DNA of 64,000 bases, from the IMG/VR virus record IMGVR_UViG_3300030202_002001, positions 1 through 64,000 of that record; one strand, given 5' to 3'. Positions 1,227 to 40,749 of this stretch are shown one piece after another. The stretch's first letter is position 1, and each line of letters opens with the position of its first letter. The DNA comes from a virus. The translations under genes and the position numbers were made by a program. The notes under the pieces are model-generated. The model searched no databases, had not been told where the DNA came from, and worked only from the letters and a program-made list of their open reading frames with translations.

Positions 1227-2405
1227 ATGAAAAACACACACCTTGAGCACCTGGAAGACGAGATCCTGAACAGCGGCACCGCTGGCGGGTTCAATGCTAT
1301 TACCTTCCTTCGTCAGTTCAGTGACCTGTTGTCTGGACAATCTAGCGATCTAAGTATCACTACCAAGTGGGATGGTGCTCCTGCAGTTATTTGCGGTACT
1401 GATCCTGTTACTGGTCGTTTCTTTGTTGGCACTAAATCTGTATTCAACAAAGTCAATCCTAAGATTTGCTTTGATGATACTGATGTTGACCGATTCTACA
1501 ATGGTCAACTTGCTAAGAAACTAAAAGATTGCCTGCAGTATCTGCCACAGGTTAATATTACTGGTATTGTTCAAGGTGACTTACTATACACTGCCGAAGA
1601 TAAGAGAAGCGGTATTGTCGGTGGAAACAGAGTTATTTGTTTCACTCCTAATACTATTACTTACGCTATTGATCGTAATTCCAAGACGGGCAATGTCGTT
1701 CATCTCACAAAGATGGGCATCGTCTTTCACACAGTTTACAAGGGCGATAGTCTTGCAACTGCACAAGTTGTACCGCAAAAACAAGCACCTAAGTATTCTT
1801 CTACTCAAGATGTTTTTGTTGCCAGTGCGAATTTTAATGATGCCACTGGTGCTACTCTATTTGATCAAGGAGATCTCTATACTTTCAATGCACAAATCAA
1901 CAAGGCACAAGGAGCACTGAAGCAGTGTTCTAAGTTTCTTGATATCATCCAAACTGAGGGTAAGTCACAGTTTATGATGAGTATGCTGCTCAAGCGTTTC
2001 TTCAATCAGCGTATTCGTGCAGGCCGTGGTGTTATGAACGCCCGCAAGATTGTTATCGAGTTTGCAAAGTTCTATGAGCAGACTGTTGATACTGAGAAAG
2101 CAAAGAAGAAAACTGTTGCTACTCAGAAAAAGTATGATGAGATGAAGAAACTCGGTCTCAAGTTCATCAGTAAGTATCAGTCACAGTTATATTTCTTGAT
2201 TGCTGCATATATTTCTATCCGTACTGCTAAGAAGATGGTCATCAACCAACTTAACAAGGTTGGCACCGTCAAGACATTTATCGGTCGTGTTCCCACATCA
2301 CCTGAGGGTTATGTTGTTCACAATGACAGTTCAATGATGAAGTTTGTTGACGATGAGTTTCGTCTTGCTAACATCACGGTTGACAAGGCATGGGCAACCA
2401 AGTAG
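1227..2405 (+). CDS. Putative nucleotidyltransferase / ligase-like protein (KxDG motif)
   Basis: 392 aa from ATG 1227. An in-frame start at 1146 would overlap the previous gene, and 1227 follows a -10 box, so I prefer 1227. The sequence shows the collinear motifs of the covalent nucleotidyltransferase superfamily (ATP-dependent ligases, capping enzymes). Motif I is KWDG with K47 as candidate nucleophile. A GRFFVGTKS segment follows (~63-71). GIVQGDLLY (~113-121) could be motif III, PEGYVV (359-364) could be motif IV, and MKFV (371-374) could be motif V. A helical, Lys-rich insert (~225-345) separates III from IV. Homologues occur in many cyanophages as uncharacterised proteins. The ligase-like reading is my inference from motif order; no substrate can be named. 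Confidence 0.6.
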   Translation: MKNTHLEHLEDEILNSGTAGGFNAITFLRQFSDLLSGQSSDLSITTKWDGAPAVICGTDPVTGRFFVGTKSVFNKVNPKICFDDTDVDRFYNGQLAKKLKDCLQYLPQVNITGIVQGDLLYTAEDKRSGIVGGNRVICFTPNTITYAIDRNSKTGNVVHLTKMGIVFHTVYKGDSLATAQVVPQKQAPKYSSTQDVFVASANFNDATGATLFDQGDLYTFNAQINKAQGALKQCSKFLDIIQTEGKSQFMMSMLLKRFFNQRIRAGRGVMNARKIVIEFAKFYEQTVDTEKAKKKTVATQKKYDEMKKLGLKFISKYQSQLYFLIAAYISIRTAKKMVINQLNKVGTVKTFIGRVPTSPEGYVVHNDSSMMKFVDDEFRLANITVDKAWATK

Positions 2406-2632: not shown

Positions 2633-4045
2633 ATGGGAAGGAAAATTGCTGTGATCGGTGCTGGTGCTGACGCTGTTGCTACGGTTGCACAACTTATTTC
2701 TGCCAGAGACATGCAAGATAGCAATTGGCAAGATGATGAAATTACATGGATACGGGATTGCTCGCATAAAGTTGACAACTTCGGGGTGCAAGTCAATTCA
2801 CTTTGGCTTACTGTTATTTCTACGAACACCACAATTAGTACACTCGACTTTCATAAGAGATTTGATGCAACTCAAAAACTTGGATTAAAGTTTATTGGGT
2901 TTGGTAATCGTACTGATAAAAACTTCTTTGTCATGTTCGATCCCACTGAAGTATCCATGCATATTGATGAGGGTAAGTTTGTTGAATTCTATTGGGATAA
3001 TGTCAAAAATCAACATTACAAACTCAATCAAGTTGATAAGCGAGTAGAATCACTCACATTTGAGGATAAGAAAGCATATATTGATGGAGAAGAATTTGAC
3101 TTCGTAATTGATTGTGTGCGTGGCGGATTGTTTGATAAAGATGCATACAAGGATGCGTTATTTAATCCAACTGATACTAAATTAACAGTTAATCGTAAGA
3201 TCCCTGGTGATTGGGATTACACTGCATATATTGCAACTGAGCATGGATATCTGACTGGTATTCCTACACAAGATGCACAGACTTGGGTCTATTCATATGA
3301 CAGTGACATGACAACTGAGGAGGAAGCAGTAGAAGATTTCAATGCACATTGTGCTGTCAAGAAACACTGTTCTTACAAAAAGTTAGAGTCAGATCATAAA
3401 ACATCTGAGTATTGTATTCATGAGAATAGATTATATGCTAGATGTGGACGCGCATTAGGTCTTAATGATGATCTAACTGGGTTTAATAATTATATTGAGA
3501 CTGATATTGGTGAGGCACTGGGTGAGTTTATCTTTGGTGATAATGATAGGCCCTGTAATAATTTGCAGCGTCTTGAAGTAGAAGATAGGTGGAGAGATGC
3601 ACAGATTGATCAAGGATCACTGATGTCATTCTATATGCAGTTTGGTACAAAGTACCGTCAATCTGACTTTTGGATTTCTACTAGAGACAAAGCATGTAGA
3701 CTACTTGAAGATAAGTATTTGCACTCAACTGAGCGTAGAGAAGTATATGAGAAGTTGGAAACTATTCCTGATGAAGAGAACATTAGACTCGATTATTTCA
3801 GACATCAAGCAGAAGCAGATGATAAATTCTTCTTGCGTCAGAGAATGACAGACGAGTCAGATGAACCATATAGAATGATTGGACCTTATCAAAGTTTCTG
3901 TCAAGCAGTATATGGACTTGGCGCACCTTATGCATCTCAATTCCCTTTAATGTCACCATTATGGGAACCTAGTGAGAAAGGTGGTGAGATTGTATTAGAT
4001 TCACTGATGGATGGACACTTCAAGAAGCGTCCTAAGAAGAAGTGA
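2633..4045 (+). CDS. Divergent flavin-dependent tryptophan-halogenase-like protein
   Basis: This 470-aa protein starts with a Rossmann dinucleotide-binding strand-turn-helix (KIAVIGAGADAVATVAQL, residues 4-21), where the third Gly of GxGxxG is Ala. Downstream, TQKLGLKF (80-87) matches the halogenase block around the catalytic Lys, here K82. HGYLTGIPTQ (204-213) followed by WVYSY (218-222) aligns in position with the family's GWxWxIP ... GYVYSS block. The Trp residues of the WxWxIP signature are therefore missing. The C-terminus is basic (KKRPKKK). Cyanophages are known to carry prnA-like genes. FADH2-dependent halogenation is the known family reaction, but the altered signature makes the true activity uncertain; another flavoenzyme function is possible. 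Confidence 0.68.
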   Translation: MGRKIAVIGAGADAVATVAQLISARDMQDSNWQDDEITWIRDCSHKVDNFGVQVNSLWLTVISTNTTISTLDFHKRFDATQKLGLKFIGFGNRTDKNFFVMFDPTEVSMHIDEGKFVEFYWDNVKNQHYKLNQVDKRVESLTFEDKKAYIDGEEFDFVIDCVRGGLFDKDAYKDALFNPTDTKLTVNRKIPGDWDYTAYIATEHGYLTGIPTQDAQTWVYSYDSDMTTEEEAVEDFNAHCAVKKHCSYKKLESDHKTSEYCIHENRLYARCGRALGLNDDLTGFNNYIETDIGEALGEFIFGDNDRPCNNLQRLEVEDRWRDAQIDQGSLMSFYMQFGTKYRQSDFWISTRDKACRLLEDKYLHSTERREVYEKLETIPDEENIRLDYFRHQAEADDKFFLRQRMTDESDEPYRMIGPYQSFCQAVYGLGAPYASQFPLMSPLWEPSEKGGEIVLDSLMDGHFKKRPKKK

Positions 4046-4069: not shown

Positions 4070-4798
4070 ATGAACAACAACAGATCACGCATGAACGCAA
4101 CTGAAGCAGGACGAATCGCCAAGGCTGAGGGTCATGCATTTGAGCATGATTTGCCATCCTATTTGAATGAATGGTTCGGTGGTGATCATGTTGTTGATGG
4201 TCGTCCACAGACTAAAGTTGACATCTATGACAATGAGACTGCTAATGCATACTCTGTCAAAAATGTAAGCAAAAACCACACACAAGTGGCGTTACTATCG
4301 TCACGCAAGTTTATTGAATACTTCGACCTTAAGGACACTTTTGTTGCTACTTTTATCCGTATGTTCTTTGGTGTTCCTAACAATCTTGGTCAGTCTTTGG
4401 TTCATCTTAAGCATAAAGATCTACCTCTGAGTGACGCTGAGAGACGCCAAAATCGCGTCTACGCTAACAACATCCCGAAACTGATTAGAGACGCCTTCAT
4501 GGACTTCATGAACGCTAATAAGTCCATTATATTTGATATCATCGTGCGTAAGGGTTTAGATTATAACGCTACACCCGTTAATTATATGATTTGGAACAAT
4601 AAAAAGACAGGTGCAATGAAGATTCTTGACATTGATTGTCTTGCTGATAAGATTGATGGCGGTGAGTGGAAACTTAACAACACAACTCTAGAGTTTCGCA
4701 CTGAAGAAGGTAACAAGTTGTTTCATTTACAGATGAAAGGATCTGGCAAAAAATATAATTCAGGTTATCATGGTATGATGTTCCACATTTATCAATAA
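4070..4798 (+). CDS. Uncharacterised protein with possible PD-(D/E)XK nuclease-like core
   Basis: 242 aa. After a short N-terminus, residues 20-25 (EGHAFE) form a helix with two Glu. The strand PQTKVDI (46-52, D51) follows, then ten residues later SVK (62-64) in the strand AYSVKNVS. An acidic helix, then D ... (E/S/Q)xK on adjacent strands, is the arrangement of type II restriction-like nucleases, although the middle acid is Ser here. The rest, including IDCLADKIDGGEW and the terminal MKGSGKKYNSGYHGMMFH, is unrecognised. A phage nuclease acting on host DNA is a hypothesis. The gene ends in TAATG, overlapping the next ATG. Translation could alternatively begin at 4091. Confidence 0.5.
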   Translation: MNNNRSRMNATEAGRIAKAEGHAFEHDLPSYLNEWFGGDHVVDGRPQTKVDIYDNETANAYSVKNVSKNHTQVALLSSRKFIEYFDLKDTFVATFIRMFFGVPNNLGQSLVHLKHKDLPLSDAERRQNRVYANNIPKLIRDAFMDFMNANKSIIFDIIVRKGLDYNATPVNYMIWNNKKTGAMKILDIDCLADKIDGGEWKLNNTTLEFRTEEGNKLFHLQMKGSGKKYNSGYHGMMFHIYQ

Positions 4799-18114: not shown

Positions 18115-21100
18115 ATGATAGAAACAAACTCCCCATTAAGCCCACGGGTAAAGACATATCAGACTATTTCTGAATCTATACCCGAATTTGCGATATCGGA
18201 AAATCCAAAGTTTGTTGATTTTTTAACTCAGTATTATATCTCACAGGATTACCAAGGTGGACCTGCAGATATTGCTGAGAATATTGATGCATACATCAAA
18301 ATTGATAATCTTACTGTAGATGTAATTAGAGGCGGGACAACACTAACAAATACCATTTCTGCAACTGATGATGTACTCACAGTAGAAAGCACGGATGGAT
18401 ATCCCGATAAACATGGTCTAATTAAGATTGATAATGAGATTATAACCTATGACCAAAAAACTCAAACTAGTTTTACTGGATGTACGAGAGGGTTCAGCGG
18501 GATTAGTTCCTACTCTGCACCTAATAATCCTGGGAATTTAGTCTGGCAGCAAACTGTTGCTGCAGAGCATCTTAGTGGTGCCGCTGCTCAGAATGTTAGT
18601 GCTCTTTTCCTAAAAGAGTTCTACAAGAAATTGAAGTCCATGTATGCTCCTGGTTTAGAAGGAGTGAACCTGTCACCTCAACTGGATATTAATAATTTCA
18701 TTAAAGAAGCGAGAAGTTTATATGAATCAAAGGGAACTGAGGATTCTTTCAAGATTCTCTTCAAAGCGTTATTTGGAATTGACCCCAAAATCAACGATCT
18801 TGAGAAATATCTCATCAAACCCTCATATGCAAACTATGTAAGGAGAAAAACACTCTCTCTTGAGTTAATTTCTGGAGACCCCGCAAAACTTGTAGGTGAA
18901 ACTCTCTATCAGGACAATGATCCACTGAACGATAAGTTCAATGCGGCATCTGGTCCTATTTCTGAAGTTTCCAACATCAGAGACAACTATTTTAAATTAT
19001 CACTCTTTACTGGTTTTGATGAAAGATCACTTACTGATGGTATTTTCGTAGTTCCTGGTAAAACTAGAAATATTGGTGACATTGGTATTGGTGCGTCTGT
19101 ACTTACAGTTGATTCCACAATCGGATTCTCTAGCACAGGCACTCTGTCTATTGGAGCAACAACTTACACTTATGGACAGAAGAGTATTAATCAGTTCTTT
19201 GAGGTATCTCCACCAGTTAAGGATACAATTAAAAATAATACTGATATTTCTGCTCCTAACATCGTTTATGGTTTTGAGGAAGGAGATTCTAGTAAAAGAG
19301 TAGAATTTAAGGTCACTGGTGTACTTAACAAATTCCTCTCAAACGAGGTTTTGACAAGCCTTGATGATGACTCATCTATTAGAATTAGAAACCTGGGTAG
19401 ATTGATCGATAACCCAGAAATCAACAGAGGATACGAAGAAATTTTCTTCAATTCCTGGGTTTACAATACATCTACTAGATATGAGATTGATTCCTTCGGT
19501 GGATCCAGTTTTCTTCTGACTGGAACCCTTGATAAGAGTAGTTTGCGTAAAAATGATAAAGTTGATATTGTTAATAGAAATTCTGAGTTAGTTGCAGCAA
19601 CTGGACTGACTGTTGCGTCGGTGAATACTTCTACAAACACTGTTACTCTTTCTGGTAACATTCCTACACTGGATTCTTCATTAAAATACGATATTCGTCG
19701 AGTCCAATTCAAAGCAAGTTCTTCAACCGTCCCTATTAAGGGTGGACAAGATCAATTATTGGCAGATATTAATAATTCTTATATTGAAACTGAAAATGAA
19801 TCTGCAACTGGCAAAAGAGAGGGTTATGTAGCGTCTAGTTCTCTTCCTAGTTATCTTATTAATTCAGATAAAATTAGATCCACATTAATTGCCCCTACTG
19901 TCGCTCTTGGAAACTTTGACAACTACAATAGTGTAGAAGATGCATACTCTACACTTGCATTTACCAATGATGTTCCGTTTAGAACTGGTGACGAGATTAC
20001 ATATGTTCCTTCAGAGGGAACAGTTGCTATTAGTGGTCTTGAGCAAAAGAATTACTTTGTAAAAGTACTTAATCCTGCTAATAGGATTGAATTGTACACA
20101 TCTCGTGCCTTTATTAAGGCACAATTACCCGAATACTTCAATCCAATCGGATCTGGAGGAACTCATGACTTTATTCTTGCATCTCAAGGAAAAAGAGAGA
20201 TTTTTCCATCTAGACCTATTCGTAGATTTACTCTAGAGCAAAATCTCAAGAGTGGAAAAGAAGCACAGACAACATCTGAGGTTACTGCAGATGGTAATAC
20301 GGGTATGCTTGTTAATGGCCTTGAAATTCTCAATTATAAGGGAGAAGATCAGGTTTTCTATGGTCCTTTAAGTGCCATTAATGTTTTAAGTGGTGGTACT
20401 GGATATGATGTTCAAAATCCTCCAAATATCACTATTACTGATTCTACAGTTAGTGTAGCGAATACTGCTGGAGGTATTGTTTCTGTTGCAGGGACGGTTT
20501 CTGCCGTTTTTGTTGATCCAGTAGACTTTGACATTGATAAAGTTATTAGTGTTCAAATATTTGGAGGTAATGGTTCTGGAGCGCGTGGTAGAGCATTACT
20601 TGAGGAAAGATACCGTGAGATTCCCTTTAGCGGCATCAGCACCCTTTCTGGAGGCAATGTAGAGGCAGTTAATGACAGGTTTACCTTTGGATCCAATCAC
20701 AATTTAGTAACTGGCAATAGAATTGTTTATGACAGCAATGGAAATAGCAATTTAGGTATTGCTACTACTGGTGGATCAAAAGATGAGTTGACCCTAATGA
20801 GTGGTCAAGATTACTATGTAAGATCTTCTGGCAATCTCTCTCTATTCCTTCATTACTCAAAATCCGACTCTGTTCTAGGAATCAATACAATTTCTATCTC
20901 AGAAGATGCTGCATCTAGCAATAGTGGTCAGCATATCTTCAGAACTTTTGAGAAGAAGAAAACAATCTCTAGAATCAATATTGAGGATAGTGGTAGTGGA
21001 TATGCAAGTAGAAAATTATATGTAAAACCCGTAGGTATCAATACATTTGCTGATAGTGTGTATTTTGAGAATCACGGATTTGTCGATGGAGATATTGTAA

Positions 21101-24100
21101 ATTATTCCTTTGAAACCACTGGTATCACTGGATTAAGCACAACAAAACAATATAAAGTATTGAGATTAAGCGACTCTTCTTTTAGATTAGCAGAGTCTGG
21201 TAATAAGGGCGATGTATTACCTACTGATACGAATTACGATAAGAGAATCCATGCATTCTTAGATTCTCATGGATCTGGTCTTCAAAGATTTGAATATCCC
21301 GAAATTCAATGTACTGTTAAGGTATTAACCGAAGATCAGCAGGAACAGGAACTCACAGCAACACCAATTGTAAGAGGTGATATTACAGATGTAGTTCTGT
21401 ACGAACCAGGAGCTAATTATGGTTCTACAATTATTAATTTCCTCAATCCGCCAACTATTTCTGTTCCTAGAGGATCTTTAGGTCAAATTGGTCTGATTTT
21501 CTCTAATGGTAGAATTATTACCGCATTTGTTCAAGCTGGTGGTAGTGGTTACTCTGGTCCTCCTGATATTCAAGTTTCTAGTGCTAGCACAGAGGCTAAC
21601 GGTGCCGTTCTCAGAGCAATTGTAAATGACACTGGTAATATTACTGAGGTTAAGGTAATTTCTGGCGGTGTTGGATATGCTGCTAGTACTACTTCAGTAG
21701 CAATCACTCCAGTAGGAAGCAACTTAAGACTTGAGGCAGCATTAAGACCATTATTGATTAATAAGTCATATGGACTCAATGATACCGAATTAGATTACCT
21801 TGCCCCCTTTGGGGATGGTGTTGCAGTCAACTATATTGGTTATGGTAACTCTATCAGAAATTTCTTTGAGGATGATGGATCTAGCCACTCTCCTATCATT
21901 GGTTGGGCATATGATGGCAATCCAATTTACGGTCCATATGGATTAGAAGATCCTGATAACATCCAGTCTGATGTTAAGAGACAAGTGACTAGTTATAATA
22001 TTAATGCTACAAATATTGAAAATCGTCCTCCTATTTCAGAGTTTCCGTATGGATCACTGATTGAGGATTATGTTTACGACGGATCTGGAGATCTTGATGA
22101 ACATAATGGTAAGTTCACCAAAACTCCCGACTTTCCTAAAGGCGTTTATGCATATTTTGCGTCTGTAGATAATATCAATAAACCACTCTTCCCATATTTC
22201 ATCGGAGATACTTTCCGTAGTTTTGCCATTCCAGAAAACACTGTTAGGGGTTTGGTAATTGATCAGACCAACTTTGACTTTGAAAGTTCTAAGTTGGTAA
22301 GAAACACCTTCCCATATAACATCTTTGGCGATGGTAAGGTATATGATTATGTCTTCCAACCTTACAAAACCAATAACCAAGAAGCAAGACCAGATAGTTT
22401 AGGTGTTGGTTCAATTACCAGTATTGATGTATCTTTCCGTGGATCTGGTTATAGTGTAAATGATAAACTTGTTTTTGATGAGACTGGAACTAATGGCGGC
22501 GGAGTTTCTGCAGAAGTTCAACAAATTTTTGGAGCGGATATTGCTAAAGTAAGTAGTCAGATTGTATCTTTCTCGAATATGCCGTTTAAGGTAGGAAGAG
22601 AAAGAACAACATTTAAAATCTCCCCATATCATGAGTTTAAGGAAAATGATTTTGTAAGAATTACTGGTGTCAGCACATTTGTTTCTGGTATAGAAGAATT
22701 CCACAAAATTTCTGTAACTCCTTATTTTACAAATCTTGAGCAAGATGGATATTCTGGAATTGTTACTGATTTAAAAGTCAATCTTGTTCCACCAAATGTT
22801 TCCGCTGGTGATTCTATCGGGATTGGAACAGAAACAATGCGTATTCTTAACGCATTCCCAAGTGAAAAAATTCTTAGAGTAGAAAGGTATGCTGGATTTG
22901 CTACAGCTGCTGTAGGTGCTGCTGTTACCTATTTTACTAGCGAGTTTAGTTTCCCACTTAAAGAAACTACCCCAATTGATTCTAGATTCCAAGAATTTTA
23001 TTATTTCAATCCTAAAGAGTCTGTTGGAGTTGGAACCACAGTTGGTTTCTCCACATCCGTAAATGTTTCATTGAATGGAGTAACTAAAACTAGATCAATT
23101 ATCTCACAATCTATTCATATTGGTGAGCATGATCTTAAAACTAATGATTTAGTCACATTCAGTAAAAATGGAAATGCAGTAATCAATGCTACTGATTCAA
23201 TTAGTCCTTATACTGCTCCCAGTGCTCTTGGATCAAGTCTATATGCAGTTCGTAAGACTTCCACTACGATTGGTCTTAAGACCTCTCCTGATGGCGCAGA
23301 GCTCTTCTTCACTAACACTGGTGATGATGCTGCAAATTATTATTTCCAGACAAATTATAATCAGGAAACTTCTGATGTTGAAAGAGGTGAATTAACTGTT
23401 CAAACCACTGGCGCACATAATCTTAGTATTGGTGATAGAGTAAACCTCACAGTAAAACCTGGTCTTACCACTGGAATTGGACCAAATGAAGATATTACAG
23501 TCAAACTATTAGATAATAACTTAATTATTAATCCTATTGATCTACCCACAACGGGTGTCAATACGGTAACAAATACTTTCACTATTTCTGATCATGGTTT
23601 GGAAACTGGATTCAAAGTCTTGGCCTATGGTGCTTTGGGTATTGAGGATACTCTTCCCGATAGGTTATTCCAAAGAGCATACTTTGTCCTGAAGGTTGAT
23701 AATGATCAGTTCCAATTATCAGATTCTAGAAGTCAGTTATTCTTAGATCCTCCAGAAGTTGTAAATGTAACTGGCGTTGGATCTACGGGACAAACAATAA
23801 ATCCAATCAATCCACCTCTACAGATAACTAAAAATAATAATGTAGTATTTAATTTGAACGATCCATCACTTCTTGGTGGTAAATTAAAAATCTTCTACGA
23901 TAGCAATTACTTCAATGAGTTTGTAGGAAGTGGAACTACGGATAATTTAGAGGTTGTCAATGTCAATACGGTTGGACTTGGAACTACAGTTCCATCTGAC
24001 ATGGCTAAATTGACATTAAATTATAATAATTCGTTTACAAGCGAAGTTTATTATGGTTTGGAAAAAGGTGGTTATATGTCAACCTCGGATACTGGGGTTG

Positions 24101-27100
24101 TAGCATATAACAAGATTGGTTTCATTGATAGTGCATTTAATGGAAAATATAATGTAACTGGTGTTGCGGGGACAGAGTTTACGACAACTCTCTCTGTGGA
24201 TCCAGAAAAATCTAATTACTCTGTAGGAGATTGCACTGACCTTTTCTACACCACAACATCTATTGGTGCAACTGGTGGTATCTCAAAGATTCGTTTGATT
24301 AATAATGGATTTGGTTATCAGAAGATTCCTGCAGTTACATCTATTGGAAACAGTGGAATTAGTGCTAATCTCCTCCTTTCTGGACCAGACATCAACAGAA
24401 TGGATAGCGTGACTGTTCCTACGGATGTTTACGGTTATCCCTCTGATAATACTCTGAAACCAGACGCATTCTTACCTAGAACAGTATTTGTAAAAAATGC
24501 AAATAGAGTAATTGATGTTGAAGTTACTTTTGGTGGTAAATCCTACTTGAACGCACCTTCTCTTGCGTTGTATGATAAGTCAACGGGAGAAATTGTACAA
24601 AATGGTTTGCTTACTTGCGATCTTAGTGATTCCGCTGTAAACACGGCTCAAGTTGTTGTACAACCTAGAGGATTGACAGGAAACGACTATGGTGTCGCTC
24701 CTCTGCAAAACAGTAACGGAATTTCTATTATTCAGGCATTCTCCGATGTTGGTGTTCTTACATGTAAGATTACTACACCTGTTCTTGGTTATGTCAATGA
24801 ACCATTTACTGTTGGTGAAACAGTATTCCTTGAGGGTATTCAGTTTAATGGTGATGGTGATGGATTTAACTCTGGAGACTATAAGTTTGTCAATTTTCAA
24901 ATTGATGATTATAACTCGGCAACAAACCCAAGAGAAGTATCATTTAAATATACTGGACTCACAACAAATGTTGGTACTGGTGCAACTGTAGTTCCTGGTT
25001 TTGGTCAAATTGTAAAGGCAGGCAACTTAGCACAATTTAGTTGCTCTAAAGCTTTCTCACCTTTCTCTAAAAACGAACCTCTCAGAAGAAATGATGACCC
25101 ATCTACTGATCTGATTTTGAGATCTATTGATACCAATACTGGTATTATGATTATTGAGGGTGCTAGACCTCTGGAAGCAGACGATCTTCTCGTAGGAACC
25201 AATAGTGGTGACCGTGCTGAAGTTGATAGTGTCACTGTATTCGATGGTTATTATGATATCGATTCTACAATTGATACTGCTATTGGATGGTCTGATAACA
25301 TTGGATTGATCGGTGATAGTAATCAATTCCTTCCCGATAATGATTATTATCAAAACTTGTCATATGCAATTGAAAGTGATAAGACATACGAAGAGATTAT
25401 TACCTATGTAAATGATATTGTCCACCCCGCTGGACTGAAAAACTTTGCTAATACTCAAATTCTATCTGTTGGTGATGCTGGAGAATCAACAAGACCCGCA
25501 GATGATGCTGGTGGATTTGTTCTTGACTTTATTAGCGATCCGTTAAGAGTTGATGCAATTTATGGTTTTGACCTTGCTAGAGATGTAGATTCTTCTAATA
25601 ATGTTTCCAAGTTCGTAGAACTAAGATCTACCAGACTTGCAGATTTTATTCTCAATAAGACAAATAGAGTTCTTATCCATGATGACATCAGTCCTCAGTT
25701 TGTTAGCAACGAATCTAATGATTTAAGCGATGATAGAACTATCGCCGCGGCCGTTGCTGGTAGAAACTTTGCAAGATATCTGATTCTCACTTCTCATGAT
25801 GCTGAGAATCCACTCAACAATCAATATCAGTTCAACGAAGTTGTTCTAGTTGCAATTGAAGGCAATACTTATCTACTTCAGAAATCTCAGATAAACAATA
25901 CTAACAATGTTGGACTTGCGACTGGATATGCAGAGTTCTTTGCCTTCTTTAATGCAAATGACAATATTACTGAGGTAAGAATCAAACCTTATGAGACATT
26001 TGACACCAACTATGATATTAAGGCATTCCAGCAAGGATTTGCTTCTGATGTAGGTATTGGTTCAGTCAATACTGGCAATGTAGTAAACTCTTCTGCTAAT
26101 GTTACCGTTTCTGCTGGAACAACAACAGAAATCACTGGATTTAGTACAGATACATTTGTTGCTGGTATTGGGCACTTTGTTATCGTAGACAATGCCGATA
26201 ATAAGGTAGATTATGTTGAGTTGGCTCTGCAACATGATGGAACAGATACCTATCTGACCGAGTTGGCATCATTCAATACTCGTCAGAGTCTTGGTGGTCT
26301 TTCTTCCCCAACATTCATGGGAACATTCACTTCTTCAATCGAAAGTGGAGTTGTCAAGATCAATTATATTCATAATGAGTTAATTCCATTATCTGTTAGA
26401 AGTAAATTTGTATCTTTTGAGAATGTTGGACTTGGTACAACCACAGTCAGACACCTTAATCTAGAATTTACTCCAGAAGGAACAGAAAGGACCGCAAGAG
26501 TAGTTGTGGGATCCTCAGCAACTACAGGTATTTCCACGGTTGTTGGAGTTACTAGTTTTACCGATCTTGCGTTCAAATCAACAGTTCATGTTGCTTTTGG
26601 ATCTACACAGACATTACATCAAGTTTATGTAATGTCCGATCCCGAAAAAGGAGACACATTTATTTCACAGCAACCAATTGCTGCCATTGGAACAACTACT
26701 GGAATCGGTACATTTGGTGCTGAGTTTAGTGGAACCCAATTAAATCTAGAATTCTATCCAGATGCAGGTGTATCTGGAATGGTAAGCATTTATTCTTACA
26801 ACGAAGTTCTTTATAAAGATGCTGATCCTAACGGTACTCTTGCTGGTATTGGTTCATTTGATTACGGTAAGGTATTTGAAAATGTTACTCAGAACACATA
26901 TCTGGGTATCAACAATAGAAATCTCAGAAGCTTTGATCTTAAATATCAGGGAACTCCAATCTATGAGAGAAATCTAAACCCACAAAACCCCAATCAACTT
27001 GATTTTGGCACGGGTCTAATCAGTTTCAAACACTTCTTCTCTAATACTGAAGAAGTTTCTTACAATCCAGGATCAAATATCGTTGGTGTTGCTGCCAGTG

Positions 27101-30100
27101 CATTGCAATATGTTACTGGATATGGACATACATCTCTACCTGGCACGGTCTTTATTGTTAAGAACAATAATAACCAGTTCTTCATCTCTACCAATATTAC
27201 CGATGCTAGACAGGGTATTGCAGTAACATTCCAACCTGGAACTGCTGCTGGTAACCAGCATAGATTCACAATGAACAAGAGAGATGAAAAGACCGTCATC
27301 GCTCTTAATGGTATTGTTCAAAAACCAATTTCATTTACAAGCATCATTTATGATTTGGATGTTGCTGTAAATGGTGTTGTTACATCTTTCGCTCTTAGTG
27401 GATTGAGCACTGTTACTTCTGGTGACCTTCTTAAGATTGAAGAAGAATACTCTATTGTAAGAACTGTTGGTTTTGCAACTCAACCATCTGGTCCTATTAC
27501 TGGTATTGGAACCTGGAGTATTGTTGAAGTAGAAAGGGGTGCTGTTGGATCTGCTGCTACAGATCACTCTGCTGGTACTGTAGCAAGAATCCATAGAGGT
27601 GCCTTCCAGATTCTCAATAGCGAAATTCACTTTACTGAGGCACCTTTAGGTGGTGACCTCGGAATTATCAACCCTGCTAATCTTCCTTATCCTAGAGCAT
27701 CCTTCGGCGGTAGAACATATCTAAGAAATGATTACAGAACTAATGAATTGTTTGATGATTTCTCAGACAAGTTTGATGGTCTTGAGAATACATTCCCACT
27801 TACAGCAACTGGTGCTGCTGTAACTGGTATTGGTTCTACTGGCGGTAATGGCGTTCTGTTTATTAACGGTATCTTCCAAGCACCGTTTGGTGAGAATAAT
27901 GAGGGGGTATCCAACTTTAAGATTCTTGAGAATCCCGTTTCTACTGCTGCTAGTGTTCAGTTTAGCGGTATCACATCGGTTGGATTTACGGATCTAATTA
28001 TTGATGAAGATGATATTAATCAAAACCAACTTCCTAGAGGTGGTGTAATTGTTTCGGTTGCTTCTACACCTGGACTTGGTTATGCACCTTTTAATGGTGC
28101 AGCAGTCAAAGTTAATGTAAACACTGCAGGAACAATTACTGAGATTGTTGGTGTTTCTACAACAGGAACGGCAGTGAATATTATTGATGCTGCTTATGAT
28201 AATAAGACTGGCATCATGACAGTTTCACTTGCAGATAATCATAAACTTGTCCTTGAAGATCAAGTCAAGTTAGTTGGCCTTGAGTTCACATGTCCTAAGG
28301 TTCCTGTCGGAACTCCTGATGGGTTTACTTATGATCCTTCTACAGGTATTTCTACCATCTCGTTTGCAAGTCCTCATGGACTAGTAAATGGAGATGCAAT
28401 CTCTATTGAAGCGAACAGCATTACATTTACATGTACACAGGGTCCTGGTAACCACACATATCCCCGCGTAACTGATCCTGCATTCAATCAGTACCTCACA
28501 ATTTCGGGTGTAACTGCAAATTCATTCAAAGTCAATGTCGGGACTGGTGGCACAGGTACATCTCCACATACATTCGTCAGTGCTGATACTGATTCTATTA
28601 AAACTCTGAATTATCAGGGTATCACTACTACAACATTCCCAGATCATAATGATCCCTTCTATGTTGTTGGTGTTACATCCGCAACAACATTTAAGGTTCA
28701 GGTTGGTGCATCTACCATTCCTCATACTTATGTGAGTGGTGGAACTGCCGCAGAATTCTTCCCACTTACATTTGGTTCTGGATACAGAACTACATTAGGT
28801 ACAATTGGGATTGCAATCACTGATCGTGCATATAATCACAAGTTTGTATCTGCTGGGGTCAATTCAATCTTTGATAATACGGGAGCAAGATATACTGCTA
28901 CCAATGCTAGATATACCTCTAGTACAGGTAAATTAGTTCTTACCCTTCCTTCACATGGTTTGACCACCAGTAATACCATTGGTATTGATACTGGATCTCT
29001 TGGATTGTCTTGCTCTAAAGATAACTATCTAAGCGTAAATCTGTATCCTAGATCAACTGATCCTGTTGCTGGTATTTTCACCGCAATTGCTTCTACTACT
29101 GTAAATACCGTCACAGTCAATGTTGGACCTGGTGGTGGTGCTGGAACAGGAGCAGATGTTTCTGCAGTTGTTGGTGTTGGTGGTAGCCTCGTATTTACAA
29201 TTAATTCTGGTGGATCTGGATATCGTGATCCCGATGCATTACCTCCAGAACCCAATGGAGAAAACCTTCCCATCGTAGGTGTTTCTAGAATTGGTCTTGG
29301 TGCTACTACACTAACTGGTGTTGGTTGTTCTATCGCTGTCCAAATCGCAGGTGTATCTACAGCAACTGGAATTGGTTCAACTCTGTTTGAGGTGTCCGAT
29401 TTTGACTTTGTTAAAAAGGGATATGGATTCAAGCGTGGAGACAAATTTACAGTCACTGGTCTTTCTACTGATCCAACTGCAGGTGATGACTTTAGACAGT
29501 TTGAACTTGAAGTAATTGATGTATTTACTGACCAAGTTTCTTCCTGGCAGTTCGGTAACATTGATTATCTTGACAACATCAAACCATTCCAAAATGGAAA
29601 TCAAAAGAGATTCCTTCTCTACTATCAGTCTTCATTGGTCAGTTTTGAGATTGATAGAGGTGACTTGGATTCTAAAGAAATTGACCTTTCTGCAGTTCTA
29701 TTAATCTTCATCAACGGTGTTATTCAAGAACCAAACATCAACTATTCATTCGATGGTGGATCAGTTATTGAATTCAATAGTGCTCCAACTGCTGAAGATA
29801 ATGTTGTTATCTTCTTCTATAGAGGAACTATCGGTCAAGATAGTTTCCTGAATGATATCAATGAAGTTATTAAAGTTGGCGACAACTTGAAACTAAGAAA
29901 GAGTGCCCAAATTGAATTGAATCAAGTTCCTGCAGAAACAGGAAACCTTTCCCAAAGTGCTAATAGAATTGTCAAGAGGATTGATAGTGCTGCTACGGTA
30001 GAAACTGCATTCTATCGTGGTGTAGGTATCAGCAACGATAACTACAAACCTATGGATTGGATCAAGCAGAAGAAGGACATTCTGGTTGATGGTTCATTGG

Positions 30101-30876
30101 TATCTAAAGCAAGAGATTCTATTGAGGCTCAAATCAACCCTATCGCTAATGTTATTGGTGTCTTAAGCACAACTGATGCTTTCGTATATGTTGATAACAC
30201 GGCAATGTTTAGAGACACTGATGACGGGTTAACTGGTTCATTCAGTCTCGCATATATTGCAGAAGTTGGATTTGGAACAACTGCAGTTTATGGTATCAAC
30301 TATGAGAACATAACTGGCATCGAACCTCTCGTTGCTAATGTTCAAGGATTTATCGGAGTTGTTACAGGAATTAGCACCTGTCCTGGAATTGGAACCGATC
30401 TCGGTCTCCTTATCCAATTCGATGCTGCAGAATATGTTAATGATGGAAACAGCACTGCTGGATTACAGATTGGACAACCAATCAAACTTTATGGATCTGG
30501 ATTCAATACTGCTGGTGTTGCAGTTACTAGTATTGATACTCATGATACCGATATTGTGGGTATTACCACATTCAATGGTGACAACATTTACTATGTACAT
30601 TCAGTATCTACAAGAAATGGTGGTCGCGTAGGTGTTCTTACCTGCAACATCGCTTCATACACTAACACTAGTGATTTTGTAGGTGTTGGTTCTACTTCTG
30701 GACCTTACTGCAACTTTACCTGGGGTAAATTCAGTGGTCTCACTAGAGATGCAGGTAATCCTGTTTTTGCAGACCTCAAGGGTTTAAACTTTGACCCTGA
30801 TTTGACCAACTATCCTATTGTTCAAAGGCGTGGAGTTGGTCTAAGAGGAACTGGCGGCTTGCCGAAGCTATTATAA
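18115..30876 (+). CDS. Giant virion structural protein in the gp7 position, YHYH domain, 4253 aa
   Basis: One uninterrupted frame of 12.76 kb, over four times T4 gp7 (1032 aa) whose slot it occupies. A wedge-like N-terminus (1-70) leads to a CTRGF-type hairpin domain (~85-130). About eight Gly-Tyr modules follow (GGTGYDV, GGSGYSG, GGVGYAA, NNGFGYQ and others). A YHYH domain begins near residue 1257 (HSPIIGWAYDGNPIYGP), and there are many HGL-x3-D-x-V hairpins. Three INGxxQxP strands lie in the last third, and an RG...H..GT.V unit near 3140. The composition is Ser/Thr/Gly/Asn-rich beta. I infer a baseplate wedge or fibre scaffold, with the N-terminus perhaps replacing gp7. Starts 1 bp after gp6; a late promoter overlaps its end. 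Confidence 0.85.
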   Translation: MIETNSPLSPRVKTYQTISESIPEFAISENPKFVDFLTQYYISQDYQGGPADIAENIDAYIKIDNLTVDVIRGGTTLTNTISATDDVLTVESTDGYPDKHGLIKIDNEIITYDQKTQTSFTGCTRGFSGISSYSAPNNPGNLVWQQTVAAEHLSGAAAQNVSALFLKEFYKKLKSMYAPGLEGVNLSPQLDINNFIKEARSLYESKGTEDSFKILFKALFGIDPKINDLEKYLIKPSYANYVRRKTLSLELISGDPAKLVGETLYQDNDPLNDKFNAASGPISEVSNIRDNYFKLSLFTGFDERSLTDGIFVVPGKTRNIGDIGIGASVLTVDSTIGFSSTGTLSIGATTYTYGQKSINQFFEVSPPVKDTIKNNTDISAPNIVYGFEEGDSSKRVEFKVTGVLNKFLSNEVLTSLDDDSSIRIRNLGRLIDNPEINRGYEEIFFNSWVYNTSTRYEIDSFGGSSFLLTGTLDKSSLRKNDKVDIVNRNSELVAATGLTVASVNTSTNTVTLSGNIPTLDSSLKYDIRRVQFKASSSTVPIKGGQDQLLADINNSYIETENESATGKREGYVASSSLPSYLINSDKIRSTLIAPTVALGNFDNYNSVEDAYSTLAFTNDVPFRTGDEITYVPSEGTVAISGLEQKNYFVKVLNPANRIELYTSRAFIKAQLPEYFNPIGSGGTHDFILASQGKREIFPSRPIRRFTLEQNLKSGKEAQTTSEVTADGNTGMLVNGLEILNYKGEDQVFYGPLSAINVLSGGTGYDVQNPPNITITDSTVSVANTAGGIVSVAGTVSAVFVDPVDFDIDKVISVQIFGGNGSGARGRALLEERYREIPFSGISTLSGGNVEAVNDRFTFGSNHNLVTGNRIVYDSNGNSNLGIATTGGSKDELTLMSGQDYYVRSSGNLSLFLHYSKSDSVLGINTISISEDAASSNSGQHIFRTFEKKKTISRINIEDSGSGYASRKLYVKPVGINTFADSVYFENHGFVDGDIVNYSFETTGITGLSTTKQYKVLRLSDSSFRLAESGNKGDVLPTDTNYDKRIHAFLDSHGSGLQRFEYPEIQCTVKVLTEDQQEQELTATPIVRGDITDVVLYEPGANYGSTIINFLNPPTISVPRGSLGQIGLIFSNGRIITAFVQAGGSGYSGPPDIQVSSASTEANGAVLRAIVNDTGNITEVKVISGGVGYAASTTSVAITPVGSNLRLEAALRPLLINKSYGLNDTELDYLAPFGDGVAVNYIGYGNSIRNFFEDDGSSHSPIIGWAYDGNPIYGPYGLEDPDNIQSDVKRQVTSYNINATNIENRPPISEFPYGSLIEDYVYDGSGDLDEHNGKFTKTPDFPKGVYAYFASVDNINKPLFPYFIGDTFRSFAIPENTVRGLVIDQTNFDFESSKLVRNTFPYNIFGDGKVYDYVFQPYKTNNQEARPDSLGVGSITSIDVSFRGSGYSVNDKLVFDETGTNGGGVSAEVQQIFGADIAKVSSQIVSFSNMPFKVGRERTTFKISPYHEFKENDFVRITGVSTFVSGIEEFHKISVTPYFTNLEQDGYSGIVTDLKVNLVPPNVSAGDSIGIGTETMRILNAFPSEKILRVERYAGFATAAVGAAVTYFTSEFSFPLKETTPIDSRFQEFYYFNPKESVGVGTTVGFSTSVNVSLNGVTKTRSIISQSIHIGEHDLKTNDLVTFSKNGNAVINATDSISPYTAPSALGSSLYAVRKTSTTIGLKTSPDGAELFFTNTGDDAANYYFQTNYNQETSDVERGELTVQTTGAHNLSIGDRVNLTVKPGLTTGIGPNEDITVKLLDNNLIINPIDLPTTGVNTVTNTFTISDHGLETGFKVLAYGALGIEDTLPDRLFQRAYFVLKVDNDQFQLSDSRSQLFLDPPEVVNVTGVGSTGQTINPINPPLQITKNNNVVFNLNDPSLLGGKLKIFYDSNYFNEFVGSGTTDNLEVVNVNTVGLGTTVPSDMAKLTLNYNNSFTSEVYYGLEKGGYMSTSDTGVVAYNKIGFIDSAFNGKYNVTGVAGTEFTTTLSVDPEKSNYSVGDCTDLFYTTTSIGATGGISKIRLINNGFGYQKIPAVTSIGNSGISANLLLSGPDINRMDSVTVPTDVYGYPSDNTLKPDAFLPRTVFVKNANRVIDVEVTFGGKSYLNAPSLALYDKSTGEIVQNGLLTCDLSDSAVNTAQVVVQPRGLTGNDYGVAPLQNSNGISIIQAFSDVGVLTCKITTPVLGYVNEPFTVGETVFLEGIQFNGDGDGFNSGDYKFVNFQIDDYNSATNPREVSFKYTGLTTNVGTGATVVPGFGQIVKAGNLAQFSCSKAFSPFSKNEPLRRNDDPSTDLILRSIDTNTGIMIIEGARPLEADDLLVGTNSGDRAEVDSVTVFDGYYDIDSTIDTAIGWSDNIGLIGDSNQFLPDNDYYQNLSYAIESDKTYEEIITYVNDIVHPAGLKNFANTQILSVGDAGESTRPADDAGGFVLDFISDPLRVDAIYGFDLARDVDSSNNVSKFVELRSTRLADFILNKTNRVLIHDDISPQFVSNESNDLSDDRTIAAAVAGRNFARYLILTSHDAENPLNNQYQFNEVVLVAIEGNTYLLQKSQINNTNNVGLATGYAEFFAFFNANDNITEVRIKPYETFDTNYDIKAFQQGFASDVGIGSVNTGNVVNSSANVTVSAGTTTEITGFSTDTFVAGIGHFVIVDNADNKVDYVELALQHDGTDTYLTELASFNTRQSLGGLSSPTFMGTFTSSIESGVVKINYIHNELIPLSVRSKFVSFENVGLGTTTVRHLNLEFTPEGTERTARVVVGSSATTGISTVVGVTSFTDLAFKSTVHVAFGSTQTLHQVYVMSDPEKGDTFISQQPIAAIGTTTGIGTFGAEFSGTQLNLEFYPDAGVSGMVSIYSYNEVLYKDADPNGTLAGIGSFDYGKVFENVTQNTYLGINNRNLRSFDLKYQGTPIYERNLNPQNPNQLDFGTGLISFKHFFSNTEEVSYNPGSNIVGVAASALQYVTGYGHTSLPGTVFIVKNNNNQFFISTNITDARQGIAVTFQPGTAAGNQHRFTMNKRDEKTVIALNGIVQKPISFTSIIYDLDVAVNGVVTSFALSGLSTVTSGDLLKIEEEYSIVRTVGFATQPSGPITGIGTWSIVEVERGAVGSAATDHSAGTVARIHRGAFQILNSEIHFTEAPLGGDLGIINPANLPYPRASFGGRTYLRNDYRTNELFDDFSDKFDGLENTFPLTATGAAVTGIGSTGGNGVLFINGIFQAPFGENNEGVSNFKILENPVSTAASVQFSGITSVGFTDLIIDEDDINQNQLPRGGVIVSVASTPGLGYAPFNGAAVKVNVNTAGTITEIVGVSTTGTAVNIIDAAYDNKTGIMTVSLADNHKLVLEDQVKLVGLEFTCPKVPVGTPDGFTYDPSTGISTISFASPHGLVNGDAISIEANSITFTCTQGPGNHTYPRVTDPAFNQYLTISGVTANSFKVNVGTGGTGTSPHTFVSADTDSIKTLNYQGITTTTFPDHNDPFYVVGVTSATTFKVQVGASTIPHTYVSGGTAAEFFPLTFGSGYRTTLGTIGIAITDRAYNHKFVSAGVNSIFDNTGARYTATNARYTSSTGKLVLTLPSHGLTTSNTIGIDTGSLGLSCSKDNYLSVNLYPRSTDPVAGIFTAIASTTVNTVTVNVGPGGGAGTGADVSAVVGVGGSLVFTINSGGSGYRDPDALPPEPNGENLPIVGVSRIGLGATTLTGVGCSIAVQIAGVSTATGIGSTLFEVSDFDFVKKGYGFKRGDKFTVTGLSTDPTAGDDFRQFELEVIDVFTDQVSSWQFGNIDYLDNIKPFQNGNQKRFLLYYQSSLVSFEIDRGDLDSKEIDLSAVLLIFINGVIQEPNINYSFDGGSVIEFNSAPTAEDNVVIFFYRGTIGQDSFLNDINEVIKVGDNLKLRKSAQIELNQVPAETGNLSQSANRIVKRIDSAATVETAFYRGVGISNDNYKPMDWIKQKKDILVDGSLVSKARDSIEAQINPIANVIGVLSTTDAFVYVDNTAMFRDTDDGLTGSFSLAYIAEVGFGTTAVYGINYENITGIEPLVANVQGFIGVVTGISTCPGIGTDLGLLIQFDAAEYVNDGNSTAGLQIGQPIKLYGSGFNTAGVAVTSIDTHDTDIVGITTFNGDNIYYVHSVSTRNGGRVGVLTCNIASYTNTSDFVGVGSTSGPYCNFTWGKFSGLTRDAGNPVFADLKGLNFDPDLTNYPIVQRRGVGLRGTGGLPKLL

Positions 30877-32491: not shown

Positions 32492-35400
32492 ATGCCACAA
32501 CAGACTAACCTCAATGTAAGTCCGTATTATGATGATTTTGACCCTAATAAGGGCTATCATCGTGTCCTGTTTAAACCAGGATTTCCAGTACAGGCTAGAG
32601 AACTTTCTACCTTACAGTCTATCCTGCAGAATCAGGTAGAAAAATTTGGTAGTCATATCTTCAAAGAAGGATCCATCGTAGTTCCAGGATCCGTAACTTT
32701 TGATGGACAATATTATGCAGTTCAGGTCAATCCAACCCACCTAGGAACTGATATTGGTGTATATGCCGATAAGGTAATTGGGAAAATTATTAAGGGACAG
32801 ACTACAGGAACAACTGCAAAAGTAATTAACTTTATTAGTGCTTCACAGTCAGATAATGACTATGACACTTTTTATGTTAAGTACATTAATTCAGCATCCA
32901 CTGGAGATTTTAATTTCTTCTCTGATGGTGAAATTTTAGTTGCAGAAGAATCATTTACATATGGTGGCACAACTATTAATGTCGGTGGTACTTTTGCTTC
33001 TACTATTGATTTAGATGCGTGTAGTATTGGTTCTGCTGCATCTGTTGATGAAGGTATCTATTTTCTTAGAGGTTGTTTTGTAAAGGTAGAAAAGCAAACA
33101 ATTATTCTAGATCAATACAACCCACAACCATCCTTTAGGGTTGGATTGAGAGTAGTCGAGACAAATGTATCTGCTAAATCCGACGAGAGCCTTTACGATA
33201 ATGCAAAGGGATTTTCTAACTTTGCTGCTCCTGGGGCAGATAGGCTTAAAATTAATCTTGTCTTAGATAAAAAAGCAGTATCAGATTTTAACGATACGGA
33301 TTTCGTAGAGATTTTACGAGTTAGCAACGGCGAAATCTTATCCATTAAGAGAGAAACAGAATATTCTAAAATTAGAGAGTATCTCGCAAAAAGAACTTTT
33401 GACGAGTCTGGTGACTATACTGTTAACAAATTCCTGTTAAACATTACAGAGTGTCTTAATGACAGGAAAGGTAATAATGGAGTTTATTTCTCTGATCAAA
33501 CAACCTTTGATGGGAATCAACCAGATGATGATCTTGCTTGCTTAAAAATTAGTGCTGGTAAGGCATATGTCAAAGGATATGAAGTATCAACTGATGGTCC
33601 TACAACCATCGACTTCTTCAAACCAAGAGAAACTGGAGAAGTAAAGAACAAGTCTTTCCCATTTGAGATGGGAAATAAGTTTATTGTCAATAATGTAAGT
33701 GGTATTAGTACCTTTACCAACAGAATTAATCTGATGGGAGGTCCCAATAGTGGTGGTAGTGCTAATGTAGCAGGCACTGCATCTAAAATTGGTGATGCTA
33801 AAGTATATAATCTTGGTTTAAGAGATAGAGTATATAAAGACGCATCTACGGAATTCGATATGTATCTGTATGATATACAGACATATACGACTCTGCAACT
33901 GAACGACTATGTTAGTAATTCTGAGTTAAACGAATCAGCATTTATTGTTGGTAAGGAAAGTGGAGCAAACGCATTTGCAGTAACCGCAGGTGCTGGTTCT
34001 AGTACCATTCAAGTTACTCAGACATCTGGTACTTTCAGGAGAGGAGAAGAAATTCTCATTAATGGAACTGATGCTACTCCTAGAACTATTGAGGGTGTAA
34101 CCCCTTACGGCATCAATGATGTTTTCTCCTTCGCTCAAAGTGGTAATAGTTTTACTGCTAACAAGAAGTTAACCGATAGGATTCCTCCTAGATTAGGAAA
34201 TGGTAATGTAAAAATTACAAAGGCTGGTGCAACAGCAACTGTCACCGCACCTAGAATTGACAGTTTCCAGAGATTCAAACCTGGAGATGTTATCAGGTTT
34301 GTGGAAGGTGGTAATCAATATCAGAATGTCGTATTGACAATTGCTGCTGACCTACAGTCCATGACTGTTGGTGCAATGACAACAGTTGCAAATTTATTTG
34401 AGGGAACTGTTAAGACCTTTGAGGGACCAATCACTATTGGATCTCAAGATGGTAGTGATCAAAATGCATCTCTCATTACAGTAATTCCAGATCTCAATGT
34501 TTCTAATGTTGACTTTACTGGATCTACATTATTACTTTCTACTCAGATTCAAAACGAATCAACTAATGCTCTTGGGCAGTTAGTTATTCCTATTTCTTCA
34601 GTAGACATTCCAGATACATCATTTGCTGGATTTGATGAGGAAAGGTATCAAGTACAATATTCAAACGGCAATATCGGTGTAATTGAGGATGATCAGGTAA
34701 CAGTTACTGGTACACAGGTAACTATTACTGGTCTTCTTCCTTCGCAAACTGGGATGACTGTTAATGTCACAGTTATCAAAGCAGTTGTCAAGAATAAAGT
34801 AAAAGAGTTTAAGAGGTGCCAACAAGTCGCTGTCACAAGATCTAAAAACAAGAGATCTGGCACTGATCCAGCCACAAGTATCAATGATGGTTTGAATCAT
34901 AGTGCTCTATATGGACTGAGAGTTCAAGATAGAGATATCTCTCTTAACGAACCAGATGCAGTTGATATTGTTGCTATCTACGAATCTTTAGATTCATCTG
35001 CTCCTATTCCAGATAAGTTAAGTTTTAGTTCTACTGATGATGTCTTTACAAGTGCTATCATCGGTGAAAATATTTTCGGATCTACAAGCAAAGCAATTGC
35101 AAAGGTAGTTTCTGTTGATGCTGGTAATAGTCAGATTGATATTGTTTATCTGACTAATGATAGATTCACTGTATTGGAACCACTGAAGTTTGAAGAGTCT
35201 AATACTACTGCTGTTCTCCAAGGATTCACCCCTGGAAAATATAGAGATATTACCAGCAGTTACATGCTGGATAAAGGTCAGAGAAATCAATATTATGATT
35301 ATTCTAGAATTGTAAGAAACAGAGGAGCATACATTCCTCATAGACAACTTCTTATAATCTATAACAGATATGATGTTCCCACTGGAGACACTGGGGATGT

Positions 35401-40537: not shown

Positions 40538-40749
40538 TGCCATCATTACGAATAGGCACATCTAATCAAGTAAAAGTTATTGCCAGCGGTGCCCTCGGAG
40601 GTGGCTCTGGCGGTAGACTGACATTGCTTGCTGATGTTGATGCATCAACACTAGAGGATGGAAGCATCCTGGTATATGAAGCGGCGTCGAACGCCTTCAA
40701 AACAACAAAAAATTTCCCTGCTGCCATCATTGACGGAGGTGTCTTCTAA
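40537..40749 (+). CDS. Small fibre-associated protein (70 aa)
   Basis: The ATG overlaps the previous stop. MPSLRIGTSNQVKVIASGALGG, then LTLLADVDASTLEDGSILVYE, resembling the repeat at the start of many phage fibre proteins (DV.....DG..L.Y). It may be a separately encoded fibre N-terminal domain. The stop overlaps the start of the large fibre gene. Confidence 0.6.
   Translation: MPSLRIGTSNQVKVIASGALGGGSGGRLTLLADVDASTLEDGSILVYEAASNAFKTTKNFPAAIIDGGVF

Follow-up and report, generated by a model that had tools for sequence, protein, structure and literature searches.

The stretch of DNA analysed here, referred to as the window, comprises positions 1 to 64,000 of the virus record IMGVR_UViG_3300030202_002001 in IMG/VR. 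On its plus strand, positions 1227-2405 code for a protein of 392 amino acids which belongs to the family DUF6267 and is a candidate covalent nucleotidyltransferase. The open reading frame has its start methionine at 1227 and its stop at 2405; an in-frame upstream extension to 1146 is probably non-coding, because the relatives of the protein begin at the same methionine. The protein matched both Pfam PF19782 (DUF6267; E 3.7e-115, 385.7 bits compared to a gathering cut-off of 27) and phrog_455 (E 9e-105) over the full length. Both families are listed as having an unknown function, and a literature search with the names DUF6267, PF19782 and phrog_455 found no paper. In a preliminary description, made from the sequence alone, the gene had been regarded as one of those left unnamed in cyanophages and as possibly representing a new clade of RNA/DNA ligases or protein AMPylases. 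A functional name is indeed lacking, but Pfam has already numbered the family, so that novelty is confined to the functional assignment.

DUF6267 was identified in 470 phage records, of which 371 are from Synechococcus phages, 61 are named 'Cyanophage' and 24 are from Prochlorococcus phages; further carriers infect Methylophilales, Pelagibacter, Stenotrophomonas, Xanthomonas and Vibrio. The replicative helicase gp41 is present in 376 Synechococcus and 61 Cyanophage records of the same collection, and by this comparison of totals, as opposed to a record-by-record matching, DUF6267 is nearly universal in the T4-like phages of marine cyanobacteria. Phage T4 itself does not contain DUF6267, and a search for plasmid relatives found none. 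Two forms of the protein exist, a long one of about 390-410 amino acids and a compact one of about 290-310 amino acids.

Motifs, conservation and predicted fold

In the ligase superfamily, the motifs follow each other in the order I, Ia, III, IIIa, IV and V. The preliminary description had quoted five such motifs for the window protein, all of which were found in this order, with the candidate nucleophile correctly numbered as K47. Motif I is KWDG (residues 47-50, positions 1365-1376), the equivalent of motif Ia is GTKS (residues 68-71, 1428-1439) and that of motif III is GIVQGDLL (residues 113-120, 1563-1586). FHT occupies the position of motif IIIa (1725-1733), PEGYVV that of motif IV (residues 359-364, 2301-2318) and MKFV, with K372, that of motif V (residues 371-374, 2337-2348). 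When the protein was shuffled 200,000 times, a regular expression describing the motifs in order matched 2 of the shuffled sequences; since this expression was composed after the protein had been seen, the result indicates only that the motif order is non-trivial, and the weight was therefore placed on conservation.

The main alignment contained 148 rows, consisting of the window protein and 147 relatives filtered at 78% identity. K47, D49, G50, P52, K70, F73, Q116, D118, N142, Y146, H168, T169, N260 and K335 are present in all 148 rows, and E360, G361, K372, F378 and N382 in 147, the sole exception being a protein truncated in that part. The conservation of K47 and of the EG in PEGYVV, on which the preliminary description had made its proposal depend, was thus borne out. 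In a smaller alignment which included the protein of Vibrio phage EniLVp02 (about 24% identity), K47, D49, G50, K70, D118, H168, T169, N260, K335, E360, G361 and K372 were invariant as well.

The AlphaFold2 model of the window protein was confident, with a predicted local distance difference test score (pLDDT) of 93.5 and a predicted template modelling score of 0.90. In the N-terminal half of the model, a strand of residues 43-47 ends at K47 and is followed by strand 53-58, by strand 65-68, which leads into TKS, and by helices. The middle part consists of strand 114-122 with QGD, strand 163-172 with FHT and a helical insert between motifs IIIa and IV (residues 214-345, positions 1866-2261), which contains the invariant residues N260 and K335 and is shorter in the compact homologues. 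This is the long helical insert before motif IV anticipated in the preliminary description. At the C-terminal end, strand 361-365 lies past E360, strand 370-374 carries K372, and a single helix closes the chain. In the model, the order of strands and motifs matches that of the ligase superfamily.

Foldseek searches of the PDB with the window model gave weak matches, among which the adenylation domains of LigA recurred. As the helical insert blurred this search, the compact homologue L202 was also folded (AlphaFold2 pLDDT 92.6). Here, the top 11 matches, ahead of any unrelated fold, were all covalent nucleotidyltransferases, namely archaeal and human DNA ligases and those of non-homologous end joining, with Lig4 and Lig1 among the matches, and RNA capping enzymes. 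The best match was 3rr5 (E 0.012, probability 0.77), and 2cfm was matched with a probability of 0.66. These matches lie below significance and are suggestive; together with those of the window model they point to the ligase and capping enzyme superfamily, in agreement with the earlier proposal. A Pfam scan of the window protein identified DUF6267 alone, with no match to PF01068, PF01653 or PF09414. Searches of PDB sequences with DUF6267, whether as a single sequence or as a profile, yielded nothing useful, the top matches of the profile lying in the helical, lysine-rich insert, and no defence-system model matched the family.

Genes linked to DUF6267

Gene context adds most to the interpretation of DUF6267. 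In most lineages, the gene is located beside uvsX and gp41, often also beside mazG, with gp61 further down where it is annotated. Downstream, a HIGH-type nucleotidyltransferase of the CTP_transf_like type (phrog_395) was identified. Where the flanking sequence sufficed, the 2.6 kb downstream of DUF6267 contained a HIGH gene in 70 of 86 loci with the long form and in 8 of 37 with the compact form; the 23 loci of the lineage to which the window belongs had none. In five loci, DUF6267 and the HIGH enzyme are fused into one protein, and phrog_455 itself covers both parts. A PDB sequence search did not assign the HIGH partner to a subfamily. Some of these enzymes carry additional parts. The HIGH enzyme of HTVC008M ends in DUF5824; that of the Stenotrophomonas phage DLP_6 (L346:8679-10847) has a C-terminal stretch resembling, by eye, a ParB-type domain; and the HIGH-like enzyme of EniLVp02 (L082:6981-7868) follows a UvsW.1 domain (PF11637, E 7.8e-19) in one fusion protein, whose annotation as a 'DNA helicase' is probably a misannotation.

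Several families, which form separate BLAST clusters and share an invariant D...(S/E)xK core, often provide the gene directly upstream of DUF6267. One of these families matches type II restriction enzymes (REase_II, E 2.2e-12), and for another the five top matches, all weak, are Holliday junction resolvases. The profile of one nuclease family matched only annexins, which was taken as chance. The neighbour families share the D...(S/E)xK core with the type II restriction enzymes of the PD-(D/E)XK type; however, in most of them a serine stands in place of an acidic residue, and no methyltransferase partner was recognised. A nuclease-like gene, DUF6267 and a HIGH gene follow each other in this order also in EniLVp02 and in HTVC008M, Melnitz-3 and DLP_6, the last three having one or two other genes ahead of the HIGH gene.

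Different nuclease-like families occupy the same upstream position, for example at L087:5016-5966, L170:645-2039, L066:97-1431 and L023:1667-2533. When the family of the upstream gene was placed as a label on a tree of 86 DUF6267 rows, at least 37 changes were required where 10 would do, a number that is approximate, as the tree was built with FastTree and has some long branches. These frequent changes imply that the nuclease is exchanged and DUF6267 retained. By analogy, such a turnover would be like that of restriction enzymes under diversifying selection.

Proposed function and alternative explanations

The most likely function of DUF6267, and a probable one, is lysyl-AMP chemistry at K47. 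K47 would attack a nucleotide donor, ATP or NAD+, at its alpha phosphate to form lysyl-AMP, and the parts of motifs III, IV and V would be played by D118, E360 and K372. In a ligase, the AMP would then be transferred to the 5' phosphate of a nucleic acid, and the strands would be sealed. Transfer to a DNA or RNA acceptor is a weaker proposition than the lysyl-AMP step, and its chances appear about even. DUF6267 would in most lineages form the middle of a cassette, preceded by a frequently replaced restriction-like nuclease, followed by the HIGH enzyme, to which it is sometimes fused, and usually with the replication genes uvsX, gp41 and gp61 as neighbours. The reading preferred here, which we regard as an evenly balanced proposition, is that DUF6267 is a divergent family within the superfamily of polynucleotide ligases and capping enzymes, and that it most likely acts as a polynucleotide ligase in this nuclease-ligase-nucleotidyltransferase cassette. 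In its favour are the conserved motifs, the confident predicted structures and the fold matches of L202, the local match to T4 Rnl1 at motifs IV and V, the linkage and fusions with the neighbouring genes, the near-universal presence of DUF6267 and the lack of recognisable ligases in the sampled Kyanoviridae.

Several observations weigh against a polynucleotide ligase. The ligase-superfamily fold is probable and not proven, because neither model gave a Foldseek match at E 0.001 and the TM-scores were low. The sequences at motif III (QGD), IIIa ([FPW]HT) and V (K-h-V-[DN]) are unorthodox, and in hhalign comparisons DUF6267 did not significantly match T4 Rnl1, Rnl2 or gp30, or the LigA of E. coli. 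An OB domain and motif VI, which are features of DNA ligases and capping enzymes, are absent; the chain ends 18 residues past motif V (residues 375-392), where the one C-terminal helix is located. The window copy, moreover, comes from a side lineage in which no HIGH partner was detected, and no HIGH gene was detectable in its 95.6 kb record, which may be a fragment. In addition to DUF6267, EniLVp02 has matches to the gp30, Rnl1 and Rnl2 families, which T4 also matches without having DUF6267, and DLP_6 combines DUF6267 with a match to the ATP DNA ligase family.

Among the known enzymes, the ATP-dependent DNA ligases (archaeal Lig, Lig1 and Lig4) provide the best L202 matches in the PDB and share the order of motifs I, III, IV and V; unlike DUF6267, they contain a DNA-binding domain in addition to the OB domain and motif VI, they have no helical insert between motifs IIIa and IV, and significant sequence similarity to them is lacking. 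For the NAD+-dependent LigA, the likeness lies in the adenylation domain recurring among the weak fold matches, whereas its Ia, zinc, HhH and BRCT domains were not seen in DUF6267.

The main alternative retains the lysyl-AMP enzyme and takes the acceptor to be either a small molecule or a nucleotide that carries a modification. DUF6267 and the HIGH enzyme would synthesise or load a derivative of a nucleotide, which might, for instance, serve to modify DNA; DNA without this derivative would be attacked by the restriction-like nuclease. The fusion of DUF6267 to an enzyme from a superfamily that activates small molecules, the turnover of a restriction-like upstream nuclease, the missing OB domain and the presence of a full ligase set alongside DUF6267 in EniLVp02 all agree with such a role. 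However, the common neighbour communities that were identified included no recognisable glycosyltransferase, methyltransferase or sugar-kinase family, the location beside uvsX, gp41 and gp61 fits strand processing equally well, and the lineage of the window and most compact loci are without a HIGH gene. This explanation is considered rather unlikely.

In a narrower form of the ligase reading, DUF6267 would serve T4-like cyanophages as their replicative DNA ligase, replacing gp30 at Okazaki fragments. That no ligase can be recognised in these phages is a long-standing puzzle. Cyanomyoviruses were reported to have no homologues of the T4 DNA ligase (g30), and none of RNase H except in S-PM2; distant ligase homologues were held possible in this 2010 review, their absence being thought more probable (PMC2984593). 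The records of syn9, ACG-2014j, HTVC008M and Melnitz-3 gave no match to PF01068, PF01653, PF09414 or PF09511, and PF01653 was matched in none of the 14 phage records tested, DUF6267 carriers among them. The sampled complete genomes are without known ligase families, in agreement with the review (PMC2984593). DUF6267 adjoins the gp41 region and is nearly universal, and would be a possible functional counterpart of gp30 in these phages, with no sequence relationship between the two having been detected. The two co-occur in EniLVp02 and, by family, in DLP_6. Since EniLVp02 contains canonical ligases plus DUF6267, the sealing of Okazaki fragments cannot account for everything, and DUF6267 as a mere replacement of gp30 was demoted. 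In T4, the host ligase can substitute (PMC2984593), the lineage of the window has DUF6267 away from the replication cluster, and an OB domain is not present. This replicative role is regarded as unlikely.

A second narrower form is an RNA repair ligase like T4 Rnl1, which would rejoin tRNA cut by a host defence. The absence of an OB domain is typical of RNA ligases and is shared by DUF6267 and Rnl1. The best local hhalign match to Rnl1 placed motifs IV and V in register (P 0.025, over 29 columns only), and that to Rnl2 lay near motif III and was non-significant. In Rnl1, however, the helical domain comes after motif V, whereas the helices of DUF6267 precede motif IV, and PF09511 was unmatched in the record of the window and in cyanophage records. 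Furthermore, no kinase or phosphatase partner for end healing was recognised nearby, EniLVp02 already has matches to Rnl1 and Rnl2, and the linked nuclease resembles DNA restriction enzymes. We consider RNA repair to be quite unlikely.

It is very improbable that DUF6267 is a protein AMPylase, as suggested as an option in the preliminary description, has another role outside nucleic acids or is a non-catalytic structural protein, since the catalytic residues are invariant across the family and the partners are nuclease- and nucleotidyltransferase-like; nothing was found in support of AMPylation, as no Fic or SelO domain was matched by Pfam in the window protein and the fold matches belong to another class.

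If DUF6267 is a polynucleotide ligase, a function would be assigned to one of the commonest unknown genes in marine T4-like phages. It is a concrete and nearly universal candidate for the distant ligase of cyanophages, and as its candidate catalytic lysine can be named, the question of the missing ligase is reduced to an assay of one protein. In cyanomyoviruses, denA, denB and ndd were also noted to be missing, and an undescribed method of host-DNA degradation was considered possible (PMC2984593); the linked nuclease-like genes are candidates for filling this gap. A doubtful extension of the ligase reading would be that an often replaced nuclease, a constant ligase without an OB domain and a HIGH enzyme form a three-part system which is widespread in T4-like cyanophages and supplies both of the functions reported as missing there, strand sealing and the cutting of host DNA.

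Surroundings of the gene in the window

In the lineage of the window, DUF6267 lies outside the replication cluster. Its neighbours here are a collagen-like open reading frame, a 2OG-Fe(II) oxygenase, a halogenase-like flavoprotein, a D...SxK protein and a UvsW-like helicase. The D...SxK protein, which is restriction-enzyme-like and a candidate for the PD-(D/E)XK type (positions 4070-4798, plus strand; phrog_25220), shows a weak match to REase_II (E 0.011), with a serine in place of the acidic residue. D51, S62-V63-K64 and Q72 are invariant in an alignment of 4 rows, and conservation was also seen across 19 rows. A protein of this type is found near DUF6267 in 21 loci, so a restriction-like protein is kept close to DUF6267 also in this different genomic setting.

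Between the two genes, a tryptophan-halogenase-like flavoprotein is encoded on the plus strand at 2633-4045 (phrog_2928, E 5.9e-18; PF04820). In the related loci L011 and L017, two genes of this kind stand side by side. Immediately upstream of DUF6267, the 2OG-Fe(II) oxygenase occupies positions 571-1173 on the plus strand (PF13640, E 1.3e-13), and its community is found directly upstream in 27 loci. It is preceded at positions 1-564 by the collagen-like open reading frame with Gly-X-Y repeats, which is open at the start of the window. The arrangement of these two genes recurs in the lineage of the window and suggests a phage-encoded hydroxylated collagen-like fibre.

Further downstream, three giant open reading frames were identified. 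The first, at 18115-30876, codes for 4253 amino acids with a YHYH domain at residues 1254-1352. The second, at 32492-39814, codes for 2440 amino acids with DUF4815, and the third, at 40749-47516, for 2255 amino acids with a Laminin_G_3 domain; the latter two are probably tail or fibre proteins.
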